A DNA stretch of 64,000 bases from an uncultured Verrucomicrobiae bacterium. Its GTDB lineage: Bacteria > Verrucomicrobiota > Verrucomicrobiia > Limisphaerales > UBA1096. Within the stretch, counting starts at the first letter, position 1. Each line of letters begins with the position of its first letter. A model generated the notes under the pieces. That model was not told the origin of the DNA. It saw only the letters and a program-made list of their open reading frames with translations, and searched no databases. Below, one piece after another: positions 2,927 to 45,759 of this stretch. The translations under genes were made by a program, and so were the position numbers. The stretch is from positions 1 to 64,000 of the forward strand of contig CALJHX010000042.1 of assembly GCA_937770485.1 (NCBI GenBank), read 5' to 3'.

Positions 2927-4342
2927 TCACCCAGAAGCTGAAATAGCCCTCAAATCAGCTCGAACCGTCTCGTAGGATGTGCTGAAACGCATTACGTTTG
3001 GGTCGGGCTCGATATTCTGGGCCTTACAGGCGGCGCTATAGAGGTCGGGCCACCAGTTGCGATGCTCCGTTTTGCTGTCCTTGCGGTATTGATTCCAGTC
3101 CATCAACACACGAGACCAGCAGTCATCACCGTAGTCGATTGCTGCTTTGGTGTTGTCAAATTCCGGGAGGTACCAGTTGCGGCCGATGCGGGCATGCAGC
3201 ACCTCGTCAGCCCAGTCATAATCCTGAAAGAGCGCGGACAACGGGTTGCTGGAATCCAGCGCTACTTCCCACTCGAAGCGTTTCCCCGTTCGTGGCATCA
3301 ACCCCTGTTCGATGAAGTAGAGGACGGCATGCCGTTCCATCGGGGTGAGTTGGGTGTTGAGAGCGTGCGACCAGTTAAAGTTGACCATGACTGTTTTGGG
3401 CCAGTCGATGCCAAGGTTCACAAAGCCCACTTCGCCCATCATGGCGTGCCGTGCTTCGTCCCAAAGTTGGCGAGTCATATCGCGGTAGTAACCCCACGGC
3501 TTACCTGTTGTTTCGGCGATGATACTTGACATCATCTCCGGCACATCAATTTCCCGAAGCCGTTTGTAAAACATTATTAGCGTCTTGGGCTCCGGTGGAT
3601 ATTGCTCGTCATAAAGAAACGACTCCGCATTGACAGCCATGTTGTATGGGTCGGGAAAGCGCTCATCGCGCCTGGGTGCACCATCGTACTGGTATGGTGT
3701 GGCTGAGTGTTGACGTTTGACTATTTGCTGGGCTTCTTCACTAGAAGCCTCGGTGTTGGACAGGCATTGGCTTAACAGGCCAAGCCAGGATTGAGATTCC
3801 GCACGCTGTTTTTCAGCAACCAATTCGTCAATGGTGGCTTGACCAATTGCAAGCATTTCGCCGATCTCTAGCAGGGCAAAACGGATAATTCTCACACTCG
3901 GGTGGTCGGCCAGCGGGTTGGTGTCGGCCAAGTGCTGTTGAAGGGCACTCTGCAGTGAAGGGAGTGCCGTCTCGTAAACTCCAAGTAAAAATTCAACAGT
4001 TGTTGGGGCGGCGAGAATCTCATCAAATAAAATCTCAAGGTGTTTGTCTGGCACTGACTCGAGTCCAAGCGGCGGCTCTCGCATTTCACCAACGCGCTGT
4101 CGAAGGGCTGCGACATGCTCAGTGCAATAATAGGAGTGCAGACTGTAAGTCATTTTAAGCTCATAAATCGGCTCAGAGGAGATACGGTTATTGAAAATCT
4201 GATGCAGCCTCTTGAGTGAATAGTGATAGCACTTCAGCCGATAAACACATTCTTCCACAGATAGACCTGGGCGCTGCGCCTCATCAAAGGTGCAGATACC
4301 TGCAAGCGGCGGAAGTTTTCCGGTCGGGAGGTTCTTTGTCAT
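2927..4342 (-). CDS. Ferritin-like fold protein of unknown function
   Basis: The 471-residue soluble protein has no signal peptide. A DEARHAMMGE motif near residue 298, with helical segments around it, is typical of ferritin-like di-iron or DUF455-type proteins, where such an ExxH supplies metal ligands; a matching acidic helix upstream (MMSSIIAETTG) fits. I do not recognise a named enzyme. Its ATG overlaps the stop of the CotH-type gene by four bases (ATGA), so the two are probably translationally coupled; nusB starts 44 bp downstream. Iron storage, oxygenation and redox roles all remain possible. Confidence 0.6.
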   Translation of the reverse strand: MTKNLPTGKLPPLAGICTFDEAQRPGLSVEECVYRLKCYHYSLKRLHQIFNNRISSEPIYELKMTYSLHSYYCTEHVAALRQRVGEMREPPLGLESVPDKHLEILFDEILAAPTTVEFLLGVYETALPSLQSALQQHLADTNPLADHPSVRIIRFALLEIGEMLAIGQATIDELVAEKQRAESQSWLGLLSQCLSNTEASSEEAQQIVKRQHSATPYQYDGAPRRDERFPDPYNMAVNAESFLYDEQYPPEPKTLIMFYKRLREIDVPEMMSSIIAETTGKPWGYYRDMTRQLWDEARHAMMGEVGFVNLGIDWPKTVMVNFNWSHALNTQLTPMERHAVLYFIEQGLMPRTGKRFEWEVALDSSNPLSALFQDYDWADEVLHARIGRNWYLPEFDNTKAAIDYGDDCWSRVLMDWNQYRKDSKTEHRNWWPDLYSAACKAQNIEPDPNVMRFSTSYETVRADLRAISASG

Positions 4343-7300
4343 GGTGTTGAAACACGGTAGAACTGCTGCCCTTCGCCATCATTAGGCGAGACGACGAATT
4401 CCACGACTTTCGTTTTTGTTACGAATTCATTTTTCTCCAGTTTCCTCCACTTCCCTGAAGCGAGGTCGTCGCTGGTATGAAGGGAATACGTGTTTCCGGG
4501 AAGCCCCAGGAATCGGATGGCCATTCTTCCACCCGTTAGACTTAATTCGCTGGATAAAAATAGAATGTCGCCTGGGGTGCCACCGGGTACGAGGCTTGCG
4601 CGCCAGTTGGTTGGGTCGTGTTCATTGCCAAGGTTCTTGGTAAGCTCGAGCGATGAGCCATTACCACTTGCTTCATTTGGCCAAGGCGGTTCGTCGGAAT
4701 AGTTTACAGAGTAAATAACTTGGCCGTCAGGATCAATCAGTTGGATTTCCTCGCCGGAGTTTGAAAGACTCCCTCCGTAGGTGCCTAGGATTGGAGCATT
4801 CGGGTATTTGGCGATAAATGCGGCTGGATCGTCATTTGGTATAAGAAGGCCAGATTCCCAGGGGGCTAGCGTTCCCTCCTCGAATGCAAAGTTAACTCCA
4901 GACAACGTGATTCCTTCTAAATTAACAGAGAAGCCAGTTGTATTCTTGAGTTCAATAAACTCAAAAAGTTTCCCGTCTATCGGATTATACATCAACTCTG
5001 TGACCTTGAGCGCTGCCGAGGGGGAAATAATAATCGACGCAGTGGTTGGCGCACTCCAGGTTTCCCCGCTTTTTGCGCGGACAGTAATGGTGGATGTCTT
5101 GTCGATGGTGACTGGTATGCCGGATGAGTCCAGGGCGGAAGCAGCAAAATTGAAGCTCAGATCCTTGTCGGACCGGGAGCCGCGATGCACCTCGACGGCG
5201 AAGACATTTTTGCCCGTTCTAAACTTGGGAACTTCAACAAAGTAGGGGAAAAAGATGCGGCTGTTCCTGCTGGAGTTTCGTGTAATAGAGTAAGTGGCAT
5301 AACGAATCGTTCCCAGTTTCATGTTACTTCGGAATAACTCCCGTCCGTTCAGGTAAACAGCGGCACCATCATCTCGCAACAAATTGATAAGCAGTGACTT
5401 GTCGGTTGATTCGCCCATCTGGAACTCCTTCCGGAAATAGATTGTTGTGTGGAATTTCGAACTGGGCTCTGAACCGCGATCAACTGCGGTGCCCTCGTCG
5501 CCGTCGCCATAGCCAAGCTCGGCCTTGCCGCTTTTCCATTCACTGTCGTTGTACTCGATAGCGGTCCAATCGACCCTGTCGAGCCTGGTTCCCGTGTCGA
5601 GATACTTCCACTCGGAGTTTATCGGTATGATCGGTTCAGTTTCTGCTTGGCTAAGCCGGGTGGCTTTTGGGTTGATGTCGCCGTTTGACATGCGCGGATC
5701 CGTGCCATCCGTCGTGTAGTACACCTCATCACTTTGTGCGCTGACGCCAAGTTTGAAGCCGGGAAGAGCTGCCCCTTCAGTCATGCTCAAGAGGGGAGAT
5801 TGGATGGAATCAAACTGGGTGTCCATCCAGTTCAAACGTTGGGAAATCCAAGCCTTTAACTGCCCAATTTCCGTCTTGAAGCCGGTCTTTGAGTTTACCA
5901 GGCGCCACTTGGTGAAGTTGCGCTGAGCTGCCTCATCAAGTAGTTCCTCCCATTCGCCTATAATTTTAAATATGTTTTTCTGGGACATTACATTGCCTCG
6001 CACCTCACCCCAGCGCTGGGCGTACTCTTCCTTGAATGACTTATTGCTCATGACACGCGACCACCACCCGTGTCTATAAGAGCCAGACCAGCCGACGGGG
6101 TCCGCAGCCCTCCCGTCATCGTCGCAACCCATCGTGCGGTCAAAGTCCCACACCGGGCCGTACTCGATGCGCTTGTTGCGGTCCTTGAAAAAATAAGTGC
6201 TCAACCGGAGACCGTCCGGGTTTTTGGTGAACTCGTTGAGCATGTGGTGGTCGATCCACGACAGTGGGTCAATGTAGTCTCGGTACTTTGTGGTGTGGCT
6301 TAAAGTCTTGTACATCGCGTTAATATAGGCGCGTGCATAGCCGCTTTGCTTGGCGGTGATGTCATCCTCCTTGGGCTCCAGCCACTTGATGCCCTCCCCG
6401 CCGGCGCTAAATCCGGAGTCACCTGGATCGGGTCGGTCGATTTTAAAGATGTAGCCCCCTGTGATTTCAGGGTCGGAATTATCGTCCGGAGCCATGCGGG
6501 TTATGTTGACCCGGTTTTTGTCCCGCTTGATTTTTTCCATAAACGAGTAAACGCCAACGTAATCGTTATAGCTCAGGGCTCCGCCGTTCGTGTTAACGAA
6601 CACCTCGCAAAACCGAGTGCGAACGGCGTAACGACCGATCTGGTTGCTCAGTTCGTAAACCAACGCATTGCGGATGAGCGCACGGTCGAAATTATACGGG
6701 GCGTATAGAATCCAGTCCGATTCTTCCGGCATTCCCAAAGGGGAGATATCCCTGTCATCTCCAAAGTCGTCACGAGCTTCGACGGCGAACGCTTTTTTGG
6801 CGCGATTCAGCGAACTGGAACCCCGTATTCTGATCCCAACGCGGGTGTCAAGGGTCGGGCCGTCCATCAATTTGGTACGGCCATCTTCGCCGGGTTCGTA
6901 AATGGACATGTGAGCATTCTTATAAGGGTCGGACGGGATGGTTCCACCCTTAAAATTTTCAATCACGATGACAGGCAAGTTTGACGAAAACTTTCGCACG
7001 TTCGATGCGAGTTGCAGATACTCCCGAGTAACCGGTGCTCCACCGTAGCCATCCTCGGTGAAACACCGGGCGCAAACGAGGGTGGATTTTGTAATCCTGA
7101 TGGCGCTAGTGTATTTTTTTGAGGATGCGGTGGGTACTGATCCGTCGGTGGTGTAGCGGACAATCTCCCCCTCTACAGAAGGCTTGAGGGTGATTGAACT
7201 GGAAGAGGGAAAACTACCGCTTGGCTTTGAAAAAACCGGATCACCCGGTTGGGGCGGGGATTGGCTCGTGTTCGGACTCCCCGGCGTCGGAGTGGACAGA

Positions 7301-8304
7301 AACACCTGCTTGGTCGAGTCGAACGCAGTGACTCGTCCGGCGAGAAGAGTGGGCATGACAAAGAACTGATTGCGGTCTGTGCGATGGTTTAAAGCGTGCA
7401 CAGACAGCACATTGTTCGCGCCGGGTTTCAAAAGGCGAATATGGTTCGTCAAATCAAAATCAAAAAAGGTAAGATCTCGATTGTCGTTGGTCGCATAGGA
7501 GCTGTACTTCGGCTTCTCGATAGAATTGAAAGTGGCGACTTTTTCACCGTTTAGGTAGGCAATAAAGCCGTCATCAAATTGGATTCTGAGAATTAGGTAA
7601 TCTAGTGTGTCTTGATTTTTTATTGAGAATTTCTTGCGAAGCCAAATGGCCCGCTTCGAGGTGCTTATCTTGGTCTTGATCAAGCTCTTTAGAACGGTTC
7701 CGGATTTTTCAAAACCAAAACCAGAACGTCCATTACTCCAGTTACTTGTTAACTTGAAGTTTGTCTCAGTCCACTTTTCCTGTGCGTTAATGCTCGCTGG
7801 TGCCAGGTAACTAAAAGTTGAGTGTGCGGGTATGACTTCAGTCGGGGCCTCCATCATTGGAACCCCGTACGATTGGTTGTCGTTCAACGCCGGAAAACTG
7901 GGGGTATACTTGTCTGCAAAATTGCCATCCGGCTTGGCCAAACCGAGGAATTCGCCAGCCCGCGATAACCTGAAACTGGTGTGCAAGGGCCGGCGGGGGT
8001 CGGCGATGTTGTTTCCGGACGCATGCACCAGCAGGAATCCGCCGGGGGGGATGCTCACATCGGGGAATGTCCACTTCAGCGGGCTCTCCAGTTCGTCACT
8101 CAAGCCCCATCCCAGTAGTTTGGCCGGTTCGTTGCCGGGATTGTGCAGTTCGATCCAGTCGGAGTCCTCGCCGAAGTTGTCTTTCAGCGACTTGTCGTTG
8201 GCGGCAACAATCTCGCTGATGAACGGGTCGCTTGCCTCGCTGGTAATAGCTAGGGCAAGCCACAAAAAACCGGTCAGTATCGTGATGGGTAATTTTAGTC
8301 GCAT
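4339..8304 (-). CDS. Secreted CotH-family protein with lamin-tail domains
   Basis: The 1,321-residue protein starts with a signal peptide (about 1-24, ending SEA). It then shows an N-terminal lamin-tail domain (FISEIVAAN...WIELHNPG), a module with DDGFIAYLNGE, a chitobiase C-terminal-like segment (IVRYTTDGSVPT), a CotH domain with VWDFDRTMGCDDDGR near 715-730, a second TTDGTDP segment, a second YLNG module (DDGAAVYLNGRE), and a C-terminal lamin-tail domain (VTELMYNP...FEFIELKN). Known CotH proteins are atypical protein kinases of spore coats; in Verrucomicrobia and Planctomycetes they are large secreted proteins of unknown role. An extracellular structural or degradative role is inferred. Confidence 0.85.
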   Translation of the reverse strand: MRLKLPITILTGFLWLALAITSEASDPFISEIVAANDKSLKDNFGEDSDWIELHNPGNEPAKLLGWGLSDELESPLKWTFPDVSIPPGGFLLVHASGNNIADPRRPLHTSFRLSRAGEFLGLAKPDGNFADKYTPSFPALNDNQSYGVPMMEAPTEVIPAHSTFSYLAPASINAQEKWTETNFKLTSNWSNGRSGFGFEKSGTVLKSLIKTKISTSKRAIWLRKKFSIKNQDTLDYLILRIQFDDGFIAYLNGEKVATFNSIEKPKYSSYATNDNRDLTFFDFDLTNHIRLLKPGANNVLSVHALNHRTDRNQFFVMPTLLAGRVTAFDSTKQVFLSTPTPGSPNTSQSPPQPGDPVFSKPSGSFPSSSSITLKPSVEGEIVRYTTDGSVPTASSKKYTSAIRITKSTLVCARCFTEDGYGGAPVTREYLQLASNVRKFSSNLPVIVIENFKGGTIPSDPYKNAHMSIYEPGEDGRTKLMDGPTLDTRVGIRIRGSSSLNRAKKAFAVEARDDFGDDRDISPLGMPEESDWILYAPYNFDRALIRNALVYELSNQIGRYAVRTRFCEVFVNTNGGALSYNDYVGVYSFMEKIKRDKNRVNITRMAPDDNSDPEITGGYIFKIDRPDPGDSGFSAGGEGIKWLEPKEDDITAKQSGYARAYINAMYKTLSHTTKYRDYIDPLSWIDHHMLNEFTKNPDGLRLSTYFFKDRNKRIEYGPVWDFDRTMGCDDDGRAADPVGWSGSYRHGWWSRVMSNKSFKEEYAQRWGEVRGNVMSQKNIFKIIGEWEELLDEAAQRNFTKWRLVNSKTGFKTEIGQLKAWISQRLNWMDTQFDSIQSPLLSMTEGAALPGFKLGVSAQSDEVYYTTDGTDPRMSNGDINPKATRLSQAETEPIIPINSEWKYLDTGTRLDRVDWTAIEYNDSEWKSGKAELGYGDGDEGTAVDRGSEPSSKFHTTIYFRKEFQMGESTDKSLLINLLRDDGAAVYLNGRELFRSNMKLGTIRYATYSITRNSSRNSRIFFPYFVEVPKFRTGKNVFAVEVHRGSRSDKDLSFNFAASALDSSGIPVTIDKTSTITVRAKSGETWSAPTTASIIISPSAALKVTELMYNPIDGKLFEFIELKNTTGFSVNLEGITLSGVNFAFEEGTLAPWESGLLIPNDDPAAFIAKYPNAPILGTYGGSLSNSGEEIQLIDPDGQVIYSVNYSDEPPWPNEASGNGSSLELTKNLGNEHDPTNWRASLVPGGTPGDILFLSSELSLTGGRMAIRFLGLPGNTYSLHTSDDLASGKWRKLEKNEFVTKTKVVEFVVSPNDGEGQQFYRVSTP

Positions 8305-18497: not shown

Positions 18498-21263
18498 TTA
18501 ATGGTTCGCCAGGAACTCCTTTGTGTTGAGCAGCGCCCAAAGCAGGTCTTTCACGCCGGCAATCTTGTCAATTGAGCCCCCCACATCAACACGTGCCTTG
18601 GCGAGTTCCGTCTCGGTAGGGAAACGGCTTAAGGTTCTGAGGAACGTTTCGTTGATCAGTCGGTCAAGTTCCCGCTCGGTGATTGGGCGTCGAGTGTTCG
18701 CGGGTTGTTTTGGTTGGCCTCCATTAAGATTGCGTATTTTCTGGTTTAATTCCTTGAGCGCTTGGCTGTAGCTTTTTGTGGAAATCCGATAACGCTGCAT
18801 GGCCCGTGCATTTTGCTTGTTCGCAGGTTTTTGTGGGGCCTTGGCCATGAGTTTCTTTCGCTGCCCGACCAGAACCTTATGTTGTCTGCTTTTTGCGCCT
18901 TGTGCTGTTGACTTCGTTTTACCGGAGTACCACTCGTTAATTTCCTGAATCCAGCCCTTGCTTTTCCGATTTCTGCCATCGAGCAACAAGTTCATCGCAG
19001 GGTCGTTCCGCGTGAAGATAGCTTGAAGGAGCGTGGGCTCGTTGGAGCGTTCGCAGTCGCAATTTGCCGTCCGGTCCGGCTTGCCGAAAACCGACAACGC
19101 ATAATTTAGAGAGGAGGTATTCTTCTTGTTGTTTTTGGACAAAGTGTCCGGGCCAATGGTGCGATCCTTTGAGGTGGCAGTCATGGCGTCAACCCGGGAC
19201 TTCGAGGCGGTGGCCTGTGTGATGGCATCCGCAACAACCTCGGCGGGCAACCGGCGAATGGTCATGCGACTGAAGTTGCGTTCGTCATGCCTGTTCGTGT
19301 CGTTGGGACGCCAACTGCGCTGATAGGCGTCGCTGTTAAGAATGGTGCGGTGCAGCCATTGCATGTTGTAGCCGCTTTGGGTAAAGCCCTTGGCTAGGTG
19401 ATCGAGCAATGACTTGTTGGAGGGCGGGTTGGCCAGGTTCATGTCGTCCACGGGATCAACAATGCCACGGCCAAAATAGTTGTGCCAAACACGGTTGACG
19501 AACGCCGGGGCGAAGTAGGGATTGTCCTCGGATCGAAGCCAGTCCATCAGCGGTTGGCGCGGATCATCGTACTCGGTTAAGTGAACATCCTCACCGCCAA
19601 GTACACTTGGCGTGATCACGCGTCTTGAGTAATTCTGCTTCTTTTTGTTTTTGCCGCCCTTGGATCTGGGCTTTGTGTTGACGATGTGGAGTTCCTGCCA
19701 TGGAACAGGTTTACCGGCATTTGCGCGTTTCCGGATTTCTTCACGCAATTGTTTCTTGTTGTTTTTCTTTTTCTTGTCGTAGCCGACAAACTGCTCGATT
19801 TCCTTCATCAGCGACTGGTAATTCATACCGGCACCCTTCTCATTTTTCGGCGTGTTTGCCTTGTATTGAATGGGCTCGAAGAAGGCCTGAAACTTTTTGA
19901 AATCCTGCTGTGTCCATTGGTCAAACGGGTGCTTGTGGCATTGTGCACACTGTATGCGGACGCCAAGGAAGGCGTGGGCGAAACTGAGTGCTTTTTCCTC
20001 CGGTTTGCGGACGTTTCTGCGACTCCAGTAAAAAGGCATTGACTCGCGGGTGTGAAAAGGAACCGGATTCTCTTTTTTGTAGTAATGGCTCATTCCCGTC
20101 GCAAAATGTTGAAAACTTTCGCCCTTTTGGCGGCTGGTCGCCATGATCAACCCCTCCGCAATTTGGTCATATGGCACATTGGTTTTCACGCGGTGATAAA
20201 TCCACTCGTACCACTGGCGAGCCATGTCGTTCCGGAAAACGGGATCGTTCAGATTCTGGGCGTTGTTTCCGGTGTAGTCGCAAAGCTTGGTAGTCCACCA
20301 CGCAGCATAAGCGGGCCGCTTGAGCAGTTCATCGATTTTCTTCGAGCGCTTGACGGAGGATTTGCTAGCGACGAAGGATCGAATCTCATCCGGGAGCGGA
20401 AGCGAACCGGTGAGGTCGAGACTTACTCGACGCAGGAATTCATCATCGGTGCATTTTTCGGACGGTACGATCCCCAGTGTTCTCAGCTTGGCCAGGATTA
20501 ATTGATCCACTTCACTTGTGGCGGGAACTTCGGGGTAGGCGTCGCCCAGTTTGTCGGAGACGGGCAGGTAAACCGGAACCGGTTGAATGCCGTTGTCGTA
20601 AAAGGCAATGATGTGTGTGTCACCTCTACCGGTGGCGGTGGTAACACCGATCTCGTTCACCGTGGCGATCGATTCATCGTTGCTGCGAAACCGAGTCAAC
20701 TCGGTGATGTCCTCGATTGAACCGTCCTTCCAGTGGACGATCGCCTGAAGCCGCTGTGATTGGCCAGACTCGGTGAAGCGCAATGATGGGGGGACGATTT
20801 CGAGACGCTCGAATTCCGGTGTCAGTTTTGAATCGTTTTTTGCACCATCCAATATCCAACTCAAAAGAAGCCGGTATTCCCAGCTGTTTTTTTTAAATCG
20901 CAGTTCGCCCTTGTGCCTTTCCTGCATGGTGGGTTTCATGAGGATGAGGCTATTTTCTGGCTGGTCGCGGTTGACTCGAATCTCGTCCTCGTCGCGAACG
21001 ATCTCTTCGTGATCCTTGTCGAACTCGTAGCCGAAGAGCGAGAGTTGAAAACCACCCCTGCCGGAGAAGGAACCGTGACACTCCCTCCCGTTACAGCCCC
21101 GGACACCAAGCAGTGGAATCACGTGCTTCCGGAAACTCGCTACATCTCTATTTGCCTCGTGTCCAAACCGTTGCGACGGAGTGGGCAGCGACTTGGCCTG
21201 CGGCGCGGCAATTATCGCCATCGCAGCCGCTAATGATGCGTAAATCGTCGAAGACTGTTTCAT
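18498..21263 (-). CDS. Planctomycete-type cytochrome/DUF1549/DUF1553 protein
   Basis: The 921-residue protein has a signal peptide (about 1-24) and a haem-like GCNGRECHG motif (C57, C62, H63; CX4CH spacing, known for this family). An Ig-like Big2 segment follows (DITELTRFRSND), then DUF1549 with LTGSLPLPDE, a second haem motif CAQCHKHP near 440, and a C-terminal DUF1553 domain (FAPAFVNRVWHNYFGRG). A Lys/Asn-rich insertion of about 50 residues follows the second haem site, and another charged linker lies near 780-850. It is probably a periplasmic multi-domain redox protein working with the downstream DUF1501 protein; the reaction is unknown. Confidence 0.9.
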   Translation of the reverse strand: MKQSSTIYASLAAAMAIIAAPQAKSLPTPSQRFGHEANRDVASFRKHVIPLLGVRGCNGRECHGSFSGRGGFQLSLFGYEFDKDHEEIVRDEDEIRVNRDQPENSLILMKPTMQERHKGELRFKKNSWEYRLLLSWILDGAKNDSKLTPEFERLEIVPPSLRFTESGQSQRLQAIVHWKDGSIEDITELTRFRSNDESIATVNEIGVTTATGRGDTHIIAFYDNGIQPVPVYLPVSDKLGDAYPEVPATSEVDQLILAKLRTLGIVPSEKCTDDEFLRRVSLDLTGSLPLPDEIRSFVASKSSVKRSKKIDELLKRPAYAAWWTTKLCDYTGNNAQNLNDPVFRNDMARQWYEWIYHRVKTNVPYDQIAEGLIMATSRQKGESFQHFATGMSHYYKKENPVPFHTRESMPFYWSRRNVRKPEEKALSFAHAFLGVRIQCAQCHKHPFDQWTQQDFKKFQAFFEPIQYKANTPKNEKGAGMNYQSLMKEIEQFVGYDKKKKNNKKQLREEIRKRANAGKPVPWQELHIVNTKPRSKGGKNKKKQNYSRRVITPSVLGGEDVHLTEYDDPRQPLMDWLRSEDNPYFAPAFVNRVWHNYFGRGIVDPVDDMNLANPPSNKSLLDHLAKGFTQSGYNMQWLHRTILNSDAYQRSWRPNDTNRHDERNFSRMTIRRLPAEVVADAITQATASKSRVDAMTATSKDRTIGPDTLSKNNKKNTSSLNYALSVFGKPDRTANCDCERSNEPTLLQAIFTRNDPAMNLLLDGRNRKSKGWIQEINEWYSGKTKSTAQGAKSRQHKVLVGQRKKLMAKAPQKPANKQNARAMQRYRISTKSYSQALKELNQKIRNLNGGQPKQPANTRRPITERELDRLINETFLRTLSRFPTETELAKARVDVGGSIDKIAGVKDLLWALLNTKEFLANH

Positions 21264-39121: not shown

Positions 39122-40099
39122 TTACTCAAACTGGGCCAGAGTTTGCGTTAGTCTGGATGGGTTCAATACTTGTTTAAATTCATAAAATAAGTCAAGGCTG
39201 GGCCGTAGGGAGGGCGTAGCCCGACCGAAGGCCCTGCATTGACTCTTTTCCTCTTCTCCAACTTCATCCTGTGCAAACTCATTTGGCGTTATGTACCCTA
39301 GGGACCGATGGGGCCGCACATGGTTGTACTTCCATCTCCAGTCCTCAATCACTACTCGCGCCTCTGTCAGGGTCCATAACTCTTCTCGATTCAGGCACTC
39401 CTCCCTTAGCCGCGCATTGAAACTCCCGATGTATCCATTCTGCCAAGGGCAGCGCGCTTCAATATAGAGCGTTTTGATCTCATTCTCTGCCAACCATTCT
39501 CTCAGATCCCTTTCGATAAACTCAGAACCGTTGTCACTTCGGATGTGTTTTGGGGCTCCATTCTTATCGATCAGCTTCGAAAAGATCTTCTTCACTTTAC
39601 CGGCGTTGATCTGCCGATCCACATGAATACACAGGCACTCCCGGCTATACTCATCGATGATGTTGAGCATTCGCAGTTTGCCCCCTCGCTTCGTCGTGTC
39701 ATGAACAAAATCCCACGTCCAGACATGCCCACGATACTTACCCTTGGTCGGAAGTCCCGTAGATACGCCCTGTCGCCTGCGCTTGGCCTTTTTCGCCGGC
39801 ACCGCCAACCCAAGCTCCCGCCGCAGTCTCTGAACATTGCGAGCCCCCACCTGCCAACCCTCTTGCTTCAGCAGTCGTGTGATCTTCGCATATCCCAACT
39901 CCGGATGCTCATTGGATTTCCGACGCAAAGCTCTCTTCAACTTTGCCTCCCAGGCATCCGCTTCTTTCGCCCTATACGCGTAGGTGCTACGATTCAGTCC
40001 AAAATGCTGGCAGACCGCTCGTGCCGTACATCGATCCCCGGAGACAAGCTTCTCTGCCATCTGTCTCTTGTGACCGGGGCTTACAACTTTTTTTATCAA
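39122..40099 (-). CDS. IS3-family transposase OrfB (integrase core)
   Basis: OrfB (325 aa) has the rve integrase fold with a DDE triad: Asp in WTWDFVHDTT, Asp in RSDNGSEF, and Glu in NARLREECLN, plus HVRPHRSLGYITPNEF. It has no good start of its own (TTG at 40099). It overlaps orfA at an A-rich run, read as A AAA AAA G, the kind of site where IS3 elements shift -1 to make the OrfAB transposase. It appears intact, so the element may be active. Confidence 0.9.
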   Translation of the reverse strand: MIKKVVSPGHKRQMAEKLVSGDRCTARAVCQHFGLNRSTYAYRAKEADAWEAKLKRALRRKSNEHPELGYAKITRLLKQEGWQVGARNVQRLRRELGLAVPAKKAKRRRQGVSTGLPTKGKYRGHVWTWDFVHDTTKRGGKLRMLNIIDEYSRECLCIHVDRQINAGKVKKIFSKLIDKNGAPKHIRSDNGSEFIERDLREWLAENEIKTLYIEARCPWQNGYIGSFNARLREECLNREELWTLTEARVVIEDWRWKYNHVRPHRSLGYITPNEFAQDEVGEEEKSQCRAFGRATPSLRPSLDLFYEFKQVLNPSRLTQTLAQFE

Positions 40100-40352
40100 G
40101 TACCTCCTTCAACAGTTCTTTACCCAGCATCTCGTCGGCCAGCATCCGCTTGAGCCGGGCGTTCTCCCGTTGGAGCTCCTTGAGTTGCTTGGCCTGATTG
40201 ACCTCAAGCATCCCCAACTCTCGCTTCCACCGGTGAAAGCTCTGCTCGCTGATCTGCCTCTCTCGGCATACGTCCTGTATCGTCTTATCTCTACTCTGCG
40301 CTTCCCGTAGGATGCGTATTTTGGTTTCTATTGTGTATCGTTTTACTTTCAT
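39987..40352 (-). CDS. IS3-family OrfA (helix-turn-helix protein)
   Basis: OrfA (121 aa) begins MKVKRYTIETKIRILREAQ with a helix-turn-helix (TIQDVCRERQISEQSFHRW) for end binding, followed by a leucine-zipper-like helix (AKQLKELQRENARLKRMLAD). Unlike the copy at 37078-37630 it has no internal stop. The last part overlaps orfB in another frame and is read only without frameshifting. Confidence 0.88.
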   Translation of the reverse strand: MKVKRYTIETKIRILREAQSRDKTIQDVCRERQISEQSFHRWKRELGMLEVNQAKQLKELQRENARLKRMLADEMLGKELLKEVLDKKSCKPRSQETDGREACLRGSMYGTSGLPAFWTES

Positions 40353-40491: not shown

Positions 40492-41865
40492 TCACGCGAA
40501 CAAACCAAGCTTTTTGAAGTCCTTTGGATTCTCTTTTTTTGCTGAAGTGTAGGTCGGAATCACTTGGTTTAGCTGCTTTTGAGTGTTGCCAAAGTGATCG
40601 GTGAAAATTTCACCGAATACCGATCGAAAGTCGGTCTTTCGGAGCAGGTAGCGTTCGTTATTGGTACTGAACATGTCGCCGTTTTTCCATGTGTTCTTGT
40701 CGCAATTGTAAACGCCGCCTTTGACACCGCCTCCTGCGACAAACATGGCTGTTGCTTCGGCATGATCTGTCCCACGACTACCGTTCTCTTTAGATGTCCG
40801 CCCAAACTCGGTCATGGTAACAACCACCATGTCATCCCATTGATCCTGCATGTCCCGGTAAAACGCCTGAAATGCCATCGCTACATTCCCCAGAAGATCG
40901 CGGTGCTTTCCGTAGAGTTGACCTTGCCCTACGTGTGTGTCCCAGCCCCCTATATTCATCCCGAGTATCTTTGCGTTGGTTCTTTTAAAAAGCATGGCTG
41001 CCTCCCGAAGCCGCTCCCCGTAGCTGCCACCGGGATAGGTTGCGCTATTGGCTGGGGTATAGGTTTTTTGCGTAGCATCCTGGAGTGTCTGGATAGTCGT
41101 GCCAAGTAGTTGACCTGTCCGGTGAACCGTATCACGGTAACGTTTTCGGGGGAGATTGGGGCGCCCTCCGTAAAGCCCAAGCACACCAGAGCCAGTCGGC
41201 CAGCGAGGGTCCGTCCCCGGAAGTGTGCCCAGAAATTTCCGGTTCTGGGCCGTGCTGCCACTGAAGGCAAAATCCGACGCCTTTCGGAAATTTGGTAATG
41301 GTTTAGGGCCGCGTAGAGAAACCATCTGTGACCCGGACAGACTTGCGGCAACAAAGGCGTTCGCCTCGTCTGTAAGGTCGAGCGTTTGGGTAATCTGCCT
41401 GTAAAACATCCCCTCATCAAGTTTCTTGTCGCCGGGTGTGGCGTTCTCCCAGTAGTGCTGGCTATTGAAGTGTGAACGTGACTGCCCGGCATATCCCACC
41501 CGATGGATCACGGCCAGATTCCCGGGGCCATCTTGGCCGTTGAGTTTTTGGTTGTTGAAAATCTCCATCATAGGTTCCAGCCCAGGGTGCAACTGGGCAA
41601 AACCATTGCCAAGGTCCAGTGCCTGGTTTTCACGCAGGAACAGGGTGGGTCGGTTGGTGGTGTTGTACTCATTGTCACCGCGTGGGATGACAGCATTGAT
41701 CCCGTCATTGCCACCACGCTGAAAGATGAAGAGCATCTTCTTGTTGCTGGAATGACCGTCGGCGAACAGGTTGTTGGGAAGCCCGAGCGAGCCTAGCAAG
41801 TTAAGTCCAACTGCTCCACCGGCCAAGCCACCGGTCTTGAGGAATTCTCGTCGTTGCATATTCAT
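40492..41865 (-). CDS. DUF1501 family exported protein, paired with DUF1800
   Basis: This 457-residue protein carries a Tat signal (MQRREFLKTGGLAGGAVG) and DUF1501 features: LFIFQRGGNDGINAVIPRGD, NIGGWDTHVGQ, and VTMTEFGRTSKENGSRGTDH near the C-terminus. It is of the subtype usually encoded with a DUF1800 protein, whose gene ends 34 bp upstream. It differs clearly from the DUF1501 protein at 17188 and represents a second system. Its function is unknown; the protein is predicted to be periplasmic. Confidence 0.9.
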   Translation of the reverse strand: MNMQRREFLKTGGLAGGAVGLNLLGSLGLPNNLFADGHSSNKKMLFIFQRGGNDGINAVIPRGDNEYNTTNRPTLFLRENQALDLGNGFAQLHPGLEPMMEIFNNQKLNGQDGPGNLAVIHRVGYAGQSRSHFNSQHYWENATPGDKKLDEGMFYRQITQTLDLTDEANAFVAASLSGSQMVSLRGPKPLPNFRKASDFAFSGSTAQNRKFLGTLPGTDPRWPTGSGVLGLYGGRPNLPRKRYRDTVHRTGQLLGTTIQTLQDATQKTYTPANSATYPGGSYGERLREAAMLFKRTNAKILGMNIGGWDTHVGQGQLYGKHRDLLGNVAMAFQAFYRDMQDQWDDMVVVTMTEFGRTSKENGSRGTDHAEATAMFVAGGGVKGGVYNCDKNTWKNGDMFSTNNERYLLRKTDFRSVFGEIFTDHFGNTQKQLNQVIPTYTSAKKENPKDFKKLGLFA

Positions 41866-41899: not shown

Positions 41900-44800
41900 T
41901 TATTGAAACTGCCACTGCGGCATGGATAATATCAAACCCACGAGTTCTTGAACCTCCTGAAGATATGAGGTCGAGGCTGGATCAAGTTTCTTGGGGCGTC
42001 CGACGGCATTTGAGTTGACGAAGTCGAGGAGAATGCCGCGCTGTTCCTCGGTAAGTGACTCCTGGAACAACAACCTGTCAAAGTAGTTCACAACCGACTC
42101 GCCGCCACCGAGTCCTCCGCGAAGTCGGGGTTGAACCAAAAAGTCCGAACTGGAGTTGGAAACGTTAAGTCCGTGGATCGCCAGGATATTCTTACCCTTT
42201 TTCAGTTCCTTAATGTGATTCGAAAGTGAAAAGGCCTGATATACTTGGGCTTCGCTGTCGCTGTGGCCTTCGGAAGCATTGGAATTCCACGCAAGGGTTT
42301 CGGGTGCGTTGGCTGCGGCAACCTTAACGCCATTCAAGTAGGCTACAAACCCATCATCGTATCGCATGTCGAGTCGTAAGTAGTCAAATTGACCGGGGTC
42401 TTCCACAAGGAAGGGGAGGCGTATGAAGACAGAGGTTCTCTTTTTGTGCATCTTCGTCTGTACATCTAGATCGATGAATTCAGTATAATCGGCATTTGTA
42501 TCATATCCGACACTGGTTCCGGTGGCGCTCCATTTTGCGTCGTTAAAATTAACCTTTGTCCAATCGAGGTTAAGTTCCCCGTTGGCCGGGACATGGTATC
42601 GGACAAGGGTGTCTGGGCCCCTTTCCGAGAAGAGGGTTTCAGCGTCCCACTTAATATATTTATCCGCGTTGTTAGCTATGGTTTGCGCAAATGTCATGCG
42701 TTCCAGCAAGGTGCCTGTGTCCATCCATTCCGATCCAATTTCCGAGTAACCGTCCGGGTCATCCCGGACGAATAACTCCATCCCGAGGTCGGAGTTATAA
42801 TCGGGTAATTTGTCTCCCGTGACATCCGCGTCTAGTGCCCGTATCGAACTGTTGATGTACTCTATCGGTGTTTTGATCTTCCCTCGATATCCGATGTCCT
42901 GCCAGAAGGCGCTCTGCTGTTTCTTGGGATCCAGAATGGTTGTCATGACTTTTCTGATATCGCCAGCAGGCTTGGTGGAGTGCCACGCCTCAATAGCCTC
43001 GTCCATGAGTTGAAGCAGTTCGGAGGGGGCGGTTCGGCTGTGGTATGTCTGCAAGCTGATTTCATCCGAGACAAACTTGTTGATGAGTTTTTGACAGATG
43101 AATTCACTTGTCGACGGGTGATCAACCATTCTATCGATAACGCTGATGGCATCGTTGACCCCGTTAATGCCACGCTGATTGGCTCGAATCCGATGTTGGT
43201 GCGCTGTTCCCTGGAAAAGGGTTTTTGTGCCGATGTGATGCTGCTCGGGAATAAAGCGGAACGTCCACTCTCCATTCGGATCCCCGTTTTCAATGCTGCC
43301 CGCAAGAGTCTTCCGTTCAATAAGTCTGGGGTGGATGGAAAGATCCGAGCTGTTCCTAGTGGTGTTATGTACTTGGATTGCGAGAATGTTCTCAGCTGGA
43401 CTAGGCTTGAGCAGCTGAAAATGGTCCTTCAGGTTGATCGTCGCCGGCTTGGCTGTGACCTCATGTCCGGCGTTGGCTTCGGTGTCAAATGGGGGAGGGG
43501 ATCCTGTGAAATTCATTGTGCTGCTTCGTCCGATTTCCTGACCATTCAGGTAGGCGATAAATCCATCGTCGTACTCTACATGAAGCATCAGGTTATCCAT
43601 TTCGTACGGCTCTCCAATGGAGAAAGCGTGGCGAAGATAAATTGAGGTGTAGCGGTTCCGCATATCGCCAAGGATCGTTTTGTCGTCATTGTCACCGTAG
43701 CCAATGCTCACCGTGCCACGAGACCATTTGGTGTCGTTGAACCCGGGTTGTGTCCACTCCAGAGTGGGGATCATGTCATTACCAACCTTCTTGGGGGAGG
43801 GCTCGGCTAGTCCCTTGAAATAACGCCACACCCGACCGGTCTTAAGCTTGTTGTCATCCTGGTATTGAGCGCTCTCTTCTGTGAAGGGGGCTCGAGCCGA
43901 CGTCGGGAACGGCTTCACATCGCCGGGCCAGGCTTTACGAATGTTCCAGCCGGAAAACGCCTTGGCTAATTCCTCAATGTCGGTCTGGTTGTAGCGATTA
44001 TCGACACCGAACCCGAACAACTCAAGAATTTCCCTTGCGTAGTTTTCGTTTGGCTCCTTTTTTTCATTCAAGACATTGTCGAGGTAAATGAGCATTGATG
44101 GGCTGGTGGCGCTGTAAAGCAGGATGTCCCTAAAATTCCCGAGTGCGTTATCGTGAAAAAACTCGTATTCCTGCCACTCCATCTGTGTGGCTTCCTGTTT
44201 GGCCTGCTTAGAAGTCATGGATTCTCGGCCGTCTGAGTTTTCCAGATCTTCAAGGTATTCAACCAACTTGTCGTAATCGGTTGTGAAGTGGTTCTCCCAA
44301 AACTCAGCCAAAACAGCCTGAAGCTGGCGCTGTGAATAGATTCCCCGCAAATGAATCAGCTGTTGTAGTGATGAAATGTCCTTGATCCGTTTCACAGGAG
44401 GCAAATCGAGCTTGGTTCGCTGGACCAGTCTAGGAATGATGCTCAAGTCATTGCTGGTAAGCTTGTCGTTGTGAACCTGTATTGCGAGAACGTTGTCGCC
44501 TTCACGTATAATGCCTAGTTTTTCAGTGATATCGAAGTCCACAGGGTCTCCGGCTTCATGGCCTTTTTTTGCTTTGGTGTTATAGCGGGCAACTCCGTCC
44601 AGGTTGGCTCGTGCAATTTCTCGCCCGTTAAGGTAGGCGATGAAACCGTCATCATAGTCTACCCGTAATATTAACTGTTTGATTTCAGCCAGATTTCTGA
44701 GCTGGAACTTACGACGAATGAAGAGGCTTAGGTAGCCGGGTTGTTCGGGTTCGTCGGCAGTTGCCTCGTAAAACCTCATGTCTGATAGTTTCGTCATGTC

Positions 44801-45586
44801 GTCGCTGTCTCCGTAGCCGAAACCGGATGGGCCTTCCTCCCACTCGCTGTCTTCAAAATTCATCGCCTTCCAGTTTGCTGGTGGCTGTTTGGTTCCCTTG
44901 AAGTAGCGCCAGATTTCTCCTTCTTCCATATGAATTTTTTCGATGGTTGGTTCATGGCTGTAAAAAAGTTCGGCTTCTTTTTTAATTTGCCTTGGAGAGG
45001 GTTGCCAATCTGCGGTTGATGGGTTCAGCTGTGACTCAATATACGATTCCACCCCAATCTCCTCTACTTTGTTGATATCCGACAAACTCGGCCCGTAGGC
45101 GATTCGGTTCAGCAAGTGGCCGATTTTTTTTGCTTGGCCGAGGCTCCAAACTGGATTCAGCCCGAACGGTGGGACTTTGGCATCCTCGTATTCTGGGAAT
45201 ACATAAAAACCGGGCTCGAACGAGAAGTGAGGCGCTACACTAAATGGAACCTTTGGTAATTCGGCAGAGGGCCCAGTCTGCACTCGCATGAAGCGAATCG
45301 GTTGATTGTCTGGGAAGGTGAATGTGACTAGTCCTTCCTCACCGGTTAACTGACCTGCGACGATCGGTTGCCAGCCGCTCGCAACATCGTTACTGATTTC
45401 CAAGACGGTGCTCATATGCCCCGCGGGCACGTGCACGCTAACGATGACCTGTTCCCCTTTTAGCTCCGTTTCGTAAATGAACGGTTCAGTGTTGCCAGCG
45501 CGCAACGTGGTTGGGCTCATGATACAAATGTTCACCAATATTGCCAGAGAGAGCAAAGTGGGAACCTTTTGCGACCGAAAAATCAT
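41900..45586 (-). CDS. Large DUF1800 protein with three YLNG modules
   Basis: From the ATG at 45586 (1,228 aa) there is a signal peptide (about 1-30). DUF1800 parts include HLLNRIAYGPS at the N-terminus, HFTTDYDKLVEYLED, and NENYAREILELFGFGVDN. Three insertions carry the same module: VDYDDGFIAYLNGREIA near 370, VEYDDGFIAYLNGQEIG near 690 and MRYDDGFVAYLNGVKVA near 1080. The CotH protein at 4339-8304 has two relatives of it. Such modules look like galactose-binding-type beta folds and may attach the protein to polymers. It forms an operon with the downstream DUF1501 gene. Confidence 0.85.
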   Translation of the reverse strand: MIFRSQKVPTLLSLAILVNICIMSPTTLRAGNTEPFIYETELKGEQVIVSVHVPAGHMSTVLEISNDVASGWQPIVAGQLTGEEGLVTFTFPDNQPIRFMRVQTGPSAELPKVPFSVAPHFSFEPGFYVFPEYEDAKVPPFGLNPVWSLGQAKKIGHLLNRIAYGPSLSDINKVEEIGVESYIESQLNPSTADWQPSPRQIKKEAELFYSHEPTIEKIHMEEGEIWRYFKGTKQPPANWKAMNFEDSEWEEGPSGFGYGDSDDMTKLSDMRFYEATADEPEQPGYLSLFIRRKFQLRNLAEIKQLILRVDYDDGFIAYLNGREIARANLDGVARYNTKAKKGHEAGDPVDFDITEKLGIIREGDNVLAIQVHNDKLTSNDLSIIPRLVQRTKLDLPPVKRIKDISSLQQLIHLRGIYSQRQLQAVLAEFWENHFTTDYDKLVEYLEDLENSDGRESMTSKQAKQEATQMEWQEYEFFHDNALGNFRDILLYSATSPSMLIYLDNVLNEKKEPNENYAREILELFGFGVDNRYNQTDIEELAKAFSGWNIRKAWPGDVKPFPTSARAPFTEESAQYQDDNKLKTGRVWRYFKGLAEPSPKKVGNDMIPTLEWTQPGFNDTKWSRGTVSIGYGDNDDKTILGDMRNRYTSIYLRHAFSIGEPYEMDNLMLHVEYDDGFIAYLNGQEIGRSSTMNFTGSPPPFDTEANAGHEVTAKPATINLKDHFQLLKPSPAENILAIQVHNTTRNSSDLSIHPRLIERKTLAGSIENGDPNGEWTFRFIPEQHHIGTKTLFQGTAHQHRIRANQRGINGVNDAISVIDRMVDHPSTSEFICQKLINKFVSDEISLQTYHSRTAPSELLQLMDEAIEAWHSTKPAGDIRKVMTTILDPKKQQSAFWQDIGYRGKIKTPIEYINSSIRALDADVTGDKLPDYNSDLGMELFVRDDPDGYSEIGSEWMDTGTLLERMTFAQTIANNADKYIKWDAETLFSERGPDTLVRYHVPANGELNLDWTKVNFNDAKWSATGTSVGYDTNADYTEFIDLDVQTKMHKKRTSVFIRLPFLVEDPGQFDYLRLDMRYDDGFVAYLNGVKVAAANAPETLAWNSNASEGHSDSEAQVYQAFSLSNHIKELKKGKNILAIHGLNVSNSSSDFLVQPRLRGGLGGGESVVNYFDRLLFQESLTEEQRGILLDFVNSNAVGRPKKLDPASTSYLQEVQELVGLILSMPQWQFQ

Positions 45587-45759
45587 ACAAGAAATATTAG
45601 CAGTGAGCAGGCCAAGTGTCAAAGTACTGTCTCCCATATATTTTGCCTTTTTTATGTTATTACATGGTGAATGAAACGTGTGAAAATCCCGCATTGAGTG
45701 TGATTTAAACACGCTTGACCAAATGTTTTGAGTTGGAGGCTAAGCGGCTTTGAGCTTGA

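Follow-up and report, generated by a model that had tools for sequence, protein, structure and literature searches.

A protein module of ~165 residues occurs five times in the window, by which we mean the whole 64,000-nucleotide stretch of DNA analysed here, from an uncultured Verrucomicrobiae bacterium. Three copies (D1, D2 and D3) lie in a protein with a DUF1800 domain and two (C1 and C2) in a CotH protein, encoded ~34 kb away. The features discussed below are the following.

41900..45712, minus strand: DUF1800 gene, 1270 amino acids as the longest open reading frame
45586, minus strand: likelier start (ATG) of the DUF1800 gene, from which the protein begins MIFRSQKVPTLLSLAILVNIC..., signal-peptide-like by eye
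44924..45172, minus strand: first piece of the DUF1800 domain, helical in the model
44417..44923, minus strand: module copy D1, inserted in the DUF1800 domain
43841..44416, minus strand: second piece of the DUF1800 domain
43313..43840, minus strand: module copy D2, between DUF1800 profile positions 194 and 195
42617..43312, minus strand: third piece of the DUF1800 domain
42110..42616, minus strand: module copy D3, an extra insertion
41903..42109, minus strand: C-terminal piece of the DUF1800 domain
40492..41865, minus strand: DUF1501 gene (PF07394), 34 bases downstream of the DUF1800 gene
4339..8304, minus strand: CotH gene, 1321 amino acids
7333..7824, minus strand: module copy C1, residues 161–324 of the CotH protein
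5119..5619, minus strand: module copy C2, residues 896–1062 of the CotH protein

The DUF1800 protein matched Pfam PF08811 in three stretches (E 3.2e-81, 274.1 bits vs. a cut-off of 26.1). In the CotH protein, the CotH domain spans residues 491–827 (Pfam E 6.4e-50), and Pfam also found two LTD and two CHB_HEX_C (chitobiase-C) stretches. The DUF1501 protein gave a weak Tat-signal match (E 0.0014) that lies below the Pfam cut-off. That the DUF1800 and CotH proteins of the window, and the other carriers in the genome, are exported is at most a judgement by eye.

The copies are 164–176 residues long and share 23–38% identity in pairwise blastp comparisons, D1 and D2 being the closest pair (38%, E 2e-39) and C1 and C2 the weakest (E 6e-06). 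A profile built from D1–D3 only retrieved both C1 (domain E 1.2e-31) and C2 (3e-22); the search covered 864 six-frame stretches of at least 40 residues and, with E allowed up to 1, yielded no further match. The blastp pairs and this profile search rule out chance similarity, and C1 and C2 are, as judged from these sequence comparisons, members of the module family. Across the five copies 17 columns are invariant, and in all five the core is followed by a strand of the form N[V/I][L/F][A/S][I/V].

An earlier note on this DNA had described three copies in the DUF1800 protein and two in the CotH protein and had proposed a profile search, and both the count and the search bear it out. Its range, 41900–45586, corresponds to the DUF1800 gene read from the likelier start, but the CotH gene lies outside it. 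Of the two types of strand that it placed after the core, the N[V/I][L/F][A/S][I/V] type was recovered throughout, but the HxDxxR variant was absent from all five modules and from the rest of the DUF1800 and CotH proteins.

Insertion of the module and its carriers

All three copies in the DUF1800 protein interrupt one helical domain. DUF1800 occurs in 74 of the 288 genomes of the phylum and runs unbroken in most of the matches listed, unlike the domain in the window, which is broken by three beta modules. Among the matches listed, the module lay inside DUF1800 in the window's genome only, by a comparison made by eye. In a wider collection, the module was found within DUF1800 proteins at 12 of 80 kept loci, these loci being the nearest to D1 and no random sample. 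At the ten such loci uncut by contig ends, D1 and D2 were always present and D3 was present at three. D3 formed a clean extra block of ~170 residues in 4 of 11 aligned complete proteins (those of the window and of loci L043, L044 and L045), and is limited to the window's clade. Four other broken DUF1800 domains (L183–L186) were considered as possible carriers and rejected, none of them matching the module at E up to 10. Elsewhere in three of these four proteins, Pfam found PA14 or CHRD.

As in known DUF1800 (PF08811) and DUF1501 (PF07394) pairs, the two genes of the window are adjacent on the same strand, and a DUF1501 gene directly follows the DUF1800 gene at 9 of the 12 related loci; the remaining three loci are truncated by the end of a contig. 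Passages of a published report (PMC5122149) describe such pairs in other bacteria.

In the window's genome (3.3 Mb), a search with E limited to 0.01 gave 20 matches to the module, of which three are clearly partial and 13 lie in CotH proteins. Beyond the window, the carriers in this genome are CotH proteins, most of them with LTD, a purple acid phosphatase, a reprolysin-like protein with cadherin-like domains and two module copies, and, weakly, a PSCyt protein. In the protein L033:7072-9948, the module separates two halves of the CotH domain, and in many other carriers it neighbours LTD, Ig-like and sorting domains and does not lie within a domain.

Profile A1, cut at E 1e-05, matched 81 of the 288 phylum genomes, and profile A2 matched 37 of 145 genomes. 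The collection scan yielded at least 568 stretches, 552 of them confirmed, and the 80 kept loci come from Verrucomicrobiota, Planctomycetota, Bacteroidota and several other phyla. Among the 70 non-DUF1800 carriers, 63 have a signal-like hydrophobic N-terminus by a crude hydrophobicity test. Pfam domains were tallied for 66 of the 70, four being dropped, and CotH was found in 50, LTD in 41 and CHB_HEX_C in 30. A type IX secretion sorting tail is present in 28 of the 66, which are thus taken as surface or secreted proteins. The module recurs in unrelated proteins, inserted as a unit, as a shuffled module does.

Fold and nearest kin

An AlphaFold2 model of D1, computed from 81 aligned copies (pLDDT 96.0, pTM 0.91), is a galactose-binding-type (jelly-roll) beta-sandwich. 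A Foldseek search of the PDB gave 259 matches at E up to 0.001, all 50 matches listed being glycosidases, and in VIA-align 133 residues of the model superimposed, at an rmsd of 2.6 (Z 12.6), on the N-terminal domain of a beta-glucuronidase of family GH2. The carbohydrate-binding-type fold raised in the earlier note is therefore what the model and both structure comparisons gave. The model of the full-length DUF1800 protein was of lower quality (pLDDT 73.8, pTM 0.58), but the same strand order recurs in it three times between helical pieces; different folds, which the earlier note had named as the outcome that would count against it, did not appear for D1–D3. The Foldseek matches to this full-length model, headed by ones with very low TM-scores (0.06–0.09) and then glycosidases, are uninformative for the helical part; for the DUF1800 part, profile A3 gave one match to PDB sequences, 3w5m, at E 0.8.

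The family alignment, A2, holds 81 rows, namely the five window copies and 76 of 102 listed modules; modules covering fewer than 130 profile positions are not in the row list, and 21 of the 102 were left out, the truncated module of locus L046 among them. Searched against PDB sequences, one module profile matched 3w5m (alpha-L-rhamnosidase, E 2.9e-06) and 7cwd (beta-galactosidase, 0.0019), and in a separate search a module profile matched 6hpd (GH2, 0.0034). The best stretch in 3w5m was 257–353, the domain after the CBM67 region, and stretch 166–231 scored 5.8 bits only. The latter we take to be the CBM67 region itself. NCBIfam gave one match at E up to 0.01, the rhamnosidase model NF041573, which matched D1 at positions 157–229 (E 0.00016) and 56 of the 81 module rows (best E 3e-06); these scores are far below the whole-protein cut-off, as is expected since the module covers one domain only.

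In hhalign comparisons, the module aligned with sequences of the GH78 CBM67 region at a probability of 97.8 and with the next GH78 domain at 95.6, compared with controls of 11.1 (LTD), 0.2 (CotH), 0.1 (DUF1800), 0.2 (a reversed set) and 0.1–0.2 (eight column shuffles). The module profile itself had been used to choose five of the eight GH78 rows that make up the CBM67 set; when the comparison was limited to the remaining three rows and the 3w5m piece, the probability was 96.2, and against those four sequences singly it was 87.5, 88.3, 89.5 and 31.6.

A Pfam or NCBIfam name for the module was rejected on the weakness of the matches. The best in Pfam, with E limited to 0.1, was the CBM-like PF14683, matched by 6 of 81 rows (lowest E 0.00059). 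BetaGal_ABD2 was matched by 3 of 81 rows and the GH2 sugar-binding domain GH2_N, PF02837, by 2 of 81 (lowest E 0.0034); the window's own five copies are not listed as reaching PF02837. A literature search of titles and abstract openings did not find a description of the module.

The module belongs to the galactose-binding-like superfamily, and its nearest kin are the GH2 sugar-binding domain by fold and the CBM67-type domains of GH78 rhamnosidases by sequence. With the GH2 sugar-binding domain (PF02837) of beta-galactosidases and beta-glucuronidases, it shares a common fold over its whole length, and the NG and N-x-LA(I/V) motifs align; however, the families that were listed for the carriers (in one tally, 25 of 62) include no GH2 catalytic domain. 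A GH2 sugar-binding domain does not necessarily bind sugar by itself, and a DDG turn is not known to be typical of GH2. CBM67 is the calcium-dependent rhamnose-binding domain of the Streptomyces avermitilis alpha-L-rhamnosidase SaRha78A (PDB 3w5m/3w5n). The likeness to CBM67 is one of profile kinship, strongest in the second half of the module (hhalign 96–98), whereas the half with W...W...GYGD matches the CBM67 region poorly. The window carriers also differ in being DUF1800 and CotH proteins and no rhamnosidase, and PF08531 gave no match in the window's own genome, which is 83% complete.

Candidate polar site and possible function

The DDG turn is conserved in the 81-row alignment, but this conservation was discounted because the collection scan had selected on [YFR]DDG[FA][IVA][AV]YL. 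We therefore counted residues in 46 full-length copies selected by profile, five partial copies being excluded; the profile was itself built largely from DDG-selected rows, which leaves some bias to DDG. D91 and D92 were both present in 36 of the 46. Asparagine or glutamine stood at position 152 in 36 of 36 copies with D91–D92 and in 3 of 10 without, and D159 in 35 of 36 and 0 of 10, respectively. The link was weaker for D39 (p 0.0027) and borderline for S157 (0.055), and there was none for the G93, Y97, A147, G36, T44 and H151 columns. Of the ten copies without the aspartate pair, two are near-identical to each other and three form a related group, and this kinship means that the p-values overstate independence; together with the bias to DDG, it makes the link look stronger than it is. 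D1 and D2 keep D91, D92, N152, D159 and D39; D3 keeps the first four; C1 is without D159 and C2 without N152. The tendency of D91, D92, N152 and D159 to be retained or lost jointly suggests a predicted ligand or metal site, and is the pattern that would be expected of a site composed of several residues.

By our own count, D91/D92 and N152 of the module align with D179/N180 and N228 of the 3w5m chain. These three residues of 3w5m are presumably part of the CBM67 calcium and rhamnose site. From the fold, the kinship and the co-kept polar positions that align with 3w5m, we infer as a final step that the module may bind carbohydrate, most likely glycan, in the way of CBM67 and probably with the help of calcium, and may thereby tether exported proteins to glycan, a reading for which we see the chances as evenly divided. 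The module would then be a non-catalytic binding module in which the tip formed by the D91–D92 and N152...D159 loops holds a calcium ion and sugar hydroxyls. Its carriers, which include CotH kinase-like and DUF1800 proteins, a protease and a phosphatase, would be held on a cell-surface or environmental polysaccharide, and three copies on one DUF1800 domain could surround the helical core and give avidity. The ligands may differ between copies, considering the 23–38% identity and the loss of one polar position in each of C1 and C2.

Alternatively, the module may be a structural spacer, a GH2-type scaffold that braces domains and binds nothing, with the DD turn and N152/D159 merely holding loops in place. 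This we consider possible although somewhat unlikely. The closest fold matches are GH2 N-terminal domains, which are part of the enzyme body, the copies within DUF1800 and CotH domains could brace them, and the low identity among copies is as a scaffold would allow. However, the many carriers with the module beside LTD, Ig-like and sorting domains fit bracing poorly, and the four polar positions co-vary, unlike G93, Y97 and A147; the latter point is not decisive, as a hydrogen-bond network could mimic such a pattern.

With a shared partner, as the earlier note had it, the module would serve for protein docking: all carriers would use it to bind one surface protein or matrix component of the cell. 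Twenty matches in a single 3.3 Mb genome, spread across protein types, and the type IX sorting tails of 28 of the 66 other carriers are consistent with this idea. It is nevertheless distinctly improbable in our judgement, since the family spans several phyla, its kin by fold and sequence are carbohydrate-binding-type domains, and identities of 23–38% would not be expected for modules with a single partner.

Origin of the copies and significance

In a tree of 63 rows, hand-chosen from 119 with the truncated L046 row left out, D3 stood apart from D1 and D2 in a group supported at 100/98. Its partners there were C1, one reprolysin copy, a CotH-inserted copy, two CotH copies of the same genome and one copy from locus L075. 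Approximately unbiased (AU) tests, with groups defined after a quick tree had been inspected, rejected D3 with D2 (p 1.5e-05), D3 with D1 (3.5e-04) and C1 with C2 (p 0.006); the branch of C1 is long, and where exactly it belongs in the tree is unsure. As D3 groups with modules of other genes, at least this copy seems to have come from another gene by shuffling between genes, and D1 and D2 may have arisen by duplication of one another. That within-gene duplication made all of D1–D3, with the likeness to the CotH modules reflecting distant superfamily kinship only, is highly improbable: D1 and D2 are indeed the most similar pair in the window, but the AU tests reject D3 as a sister of either, and its group in the tree holds C1 together with reprolysin and CotH modules from this genome. 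Mobility between unrelated proteins, which the earlier note had suggested, is thus upheld by the insertions inside domains, the tree and the AU tests.

Returning to the carbohydrate-binding reading, a broader form of it would make the module a family of calcium-dependent, lectin-type domains, so far uncatalogued, by which exported proteins of Verrucomicrobiota, Planctomycetota and Bacteroidota are generally anchored to glycan and which can enter the interior of folded domains, with DUF1800 as a three-armed, multivalent protein acting with its DUF1501 partner. This form we hold to be unlikely.

Taken together, the module is real, has been shuffled and belongs to a known superfamily, and neither Pfam nor NCBIfam gave a clear model for it. 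To our knowledge, environmental bacteria commonly encode CotH/LTD proteins and DUF1800/DUF1501 pairs, both of which are unexplained. The CotH and DUF1800 families are linked, and made testable, by a widespread module whose fold can be named and which has a candidate ligand site. The triple insertion into DUF1800, with its clade-limited third copy, is a clear case of domain insertion in bacteria, and a family model built from the module would annotate many CotH-type proteins, as CotH is present in 50 of the 66 scanned carriers.

CotH proteins of the same genome

Seventeen CotH matches were found in the 3.3-Mb assembly from which the window derives, two of which are the halves of one split domain. 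On contig C7, the module, a galactose-binding-type beta-sandwich of ~165 residues, splits the CotH domain of the protein at L033:7072-9948, and a run of ankyrin repeats follows the split domain. In a CotH protein on contig C17 (L040:5340-9962), the module itself is apparently split: a weak match to profile positions 12-46 lies at residues 172-206 and a match to positions 52-166 at residues 523-637. Between the two pieces, residues 383-479 match F5/8 type C. This arrangement is perhaps a nested insertion.

Other module carriers and neighboring genes

Two features of the window were noted alongside these proteins:
18498-21263, PSCyt2-PSD1 protein with a Big_2-like match
39122-40352 (-), two overlapping ORFs, a putative IS3-type transposase pair judging by the look of their translations alone

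The PSCyt2-PSD1 protein gave no module match; a similar protein of the same genome (L041) gave a weak one. The ORF pair lies immediately downstream of the DUF1501 gene. Among module carriers, dockerin-like calcium-loop repeats were recognized by eye in the N-terminal region of L097:4327-7413 and in the C-terminal region of those in L072 and L103.

Interrupted DUF1800 domains lacking the module

In four verrucomicrobial DUF1800 proteins (L183-L186), the domain match is interrupted after profile positions 193, 194, 219 or 311, and the module is absent from all four. Because these matches are broken without it, the DUF1800 loops at the break points may be general insertion sites.
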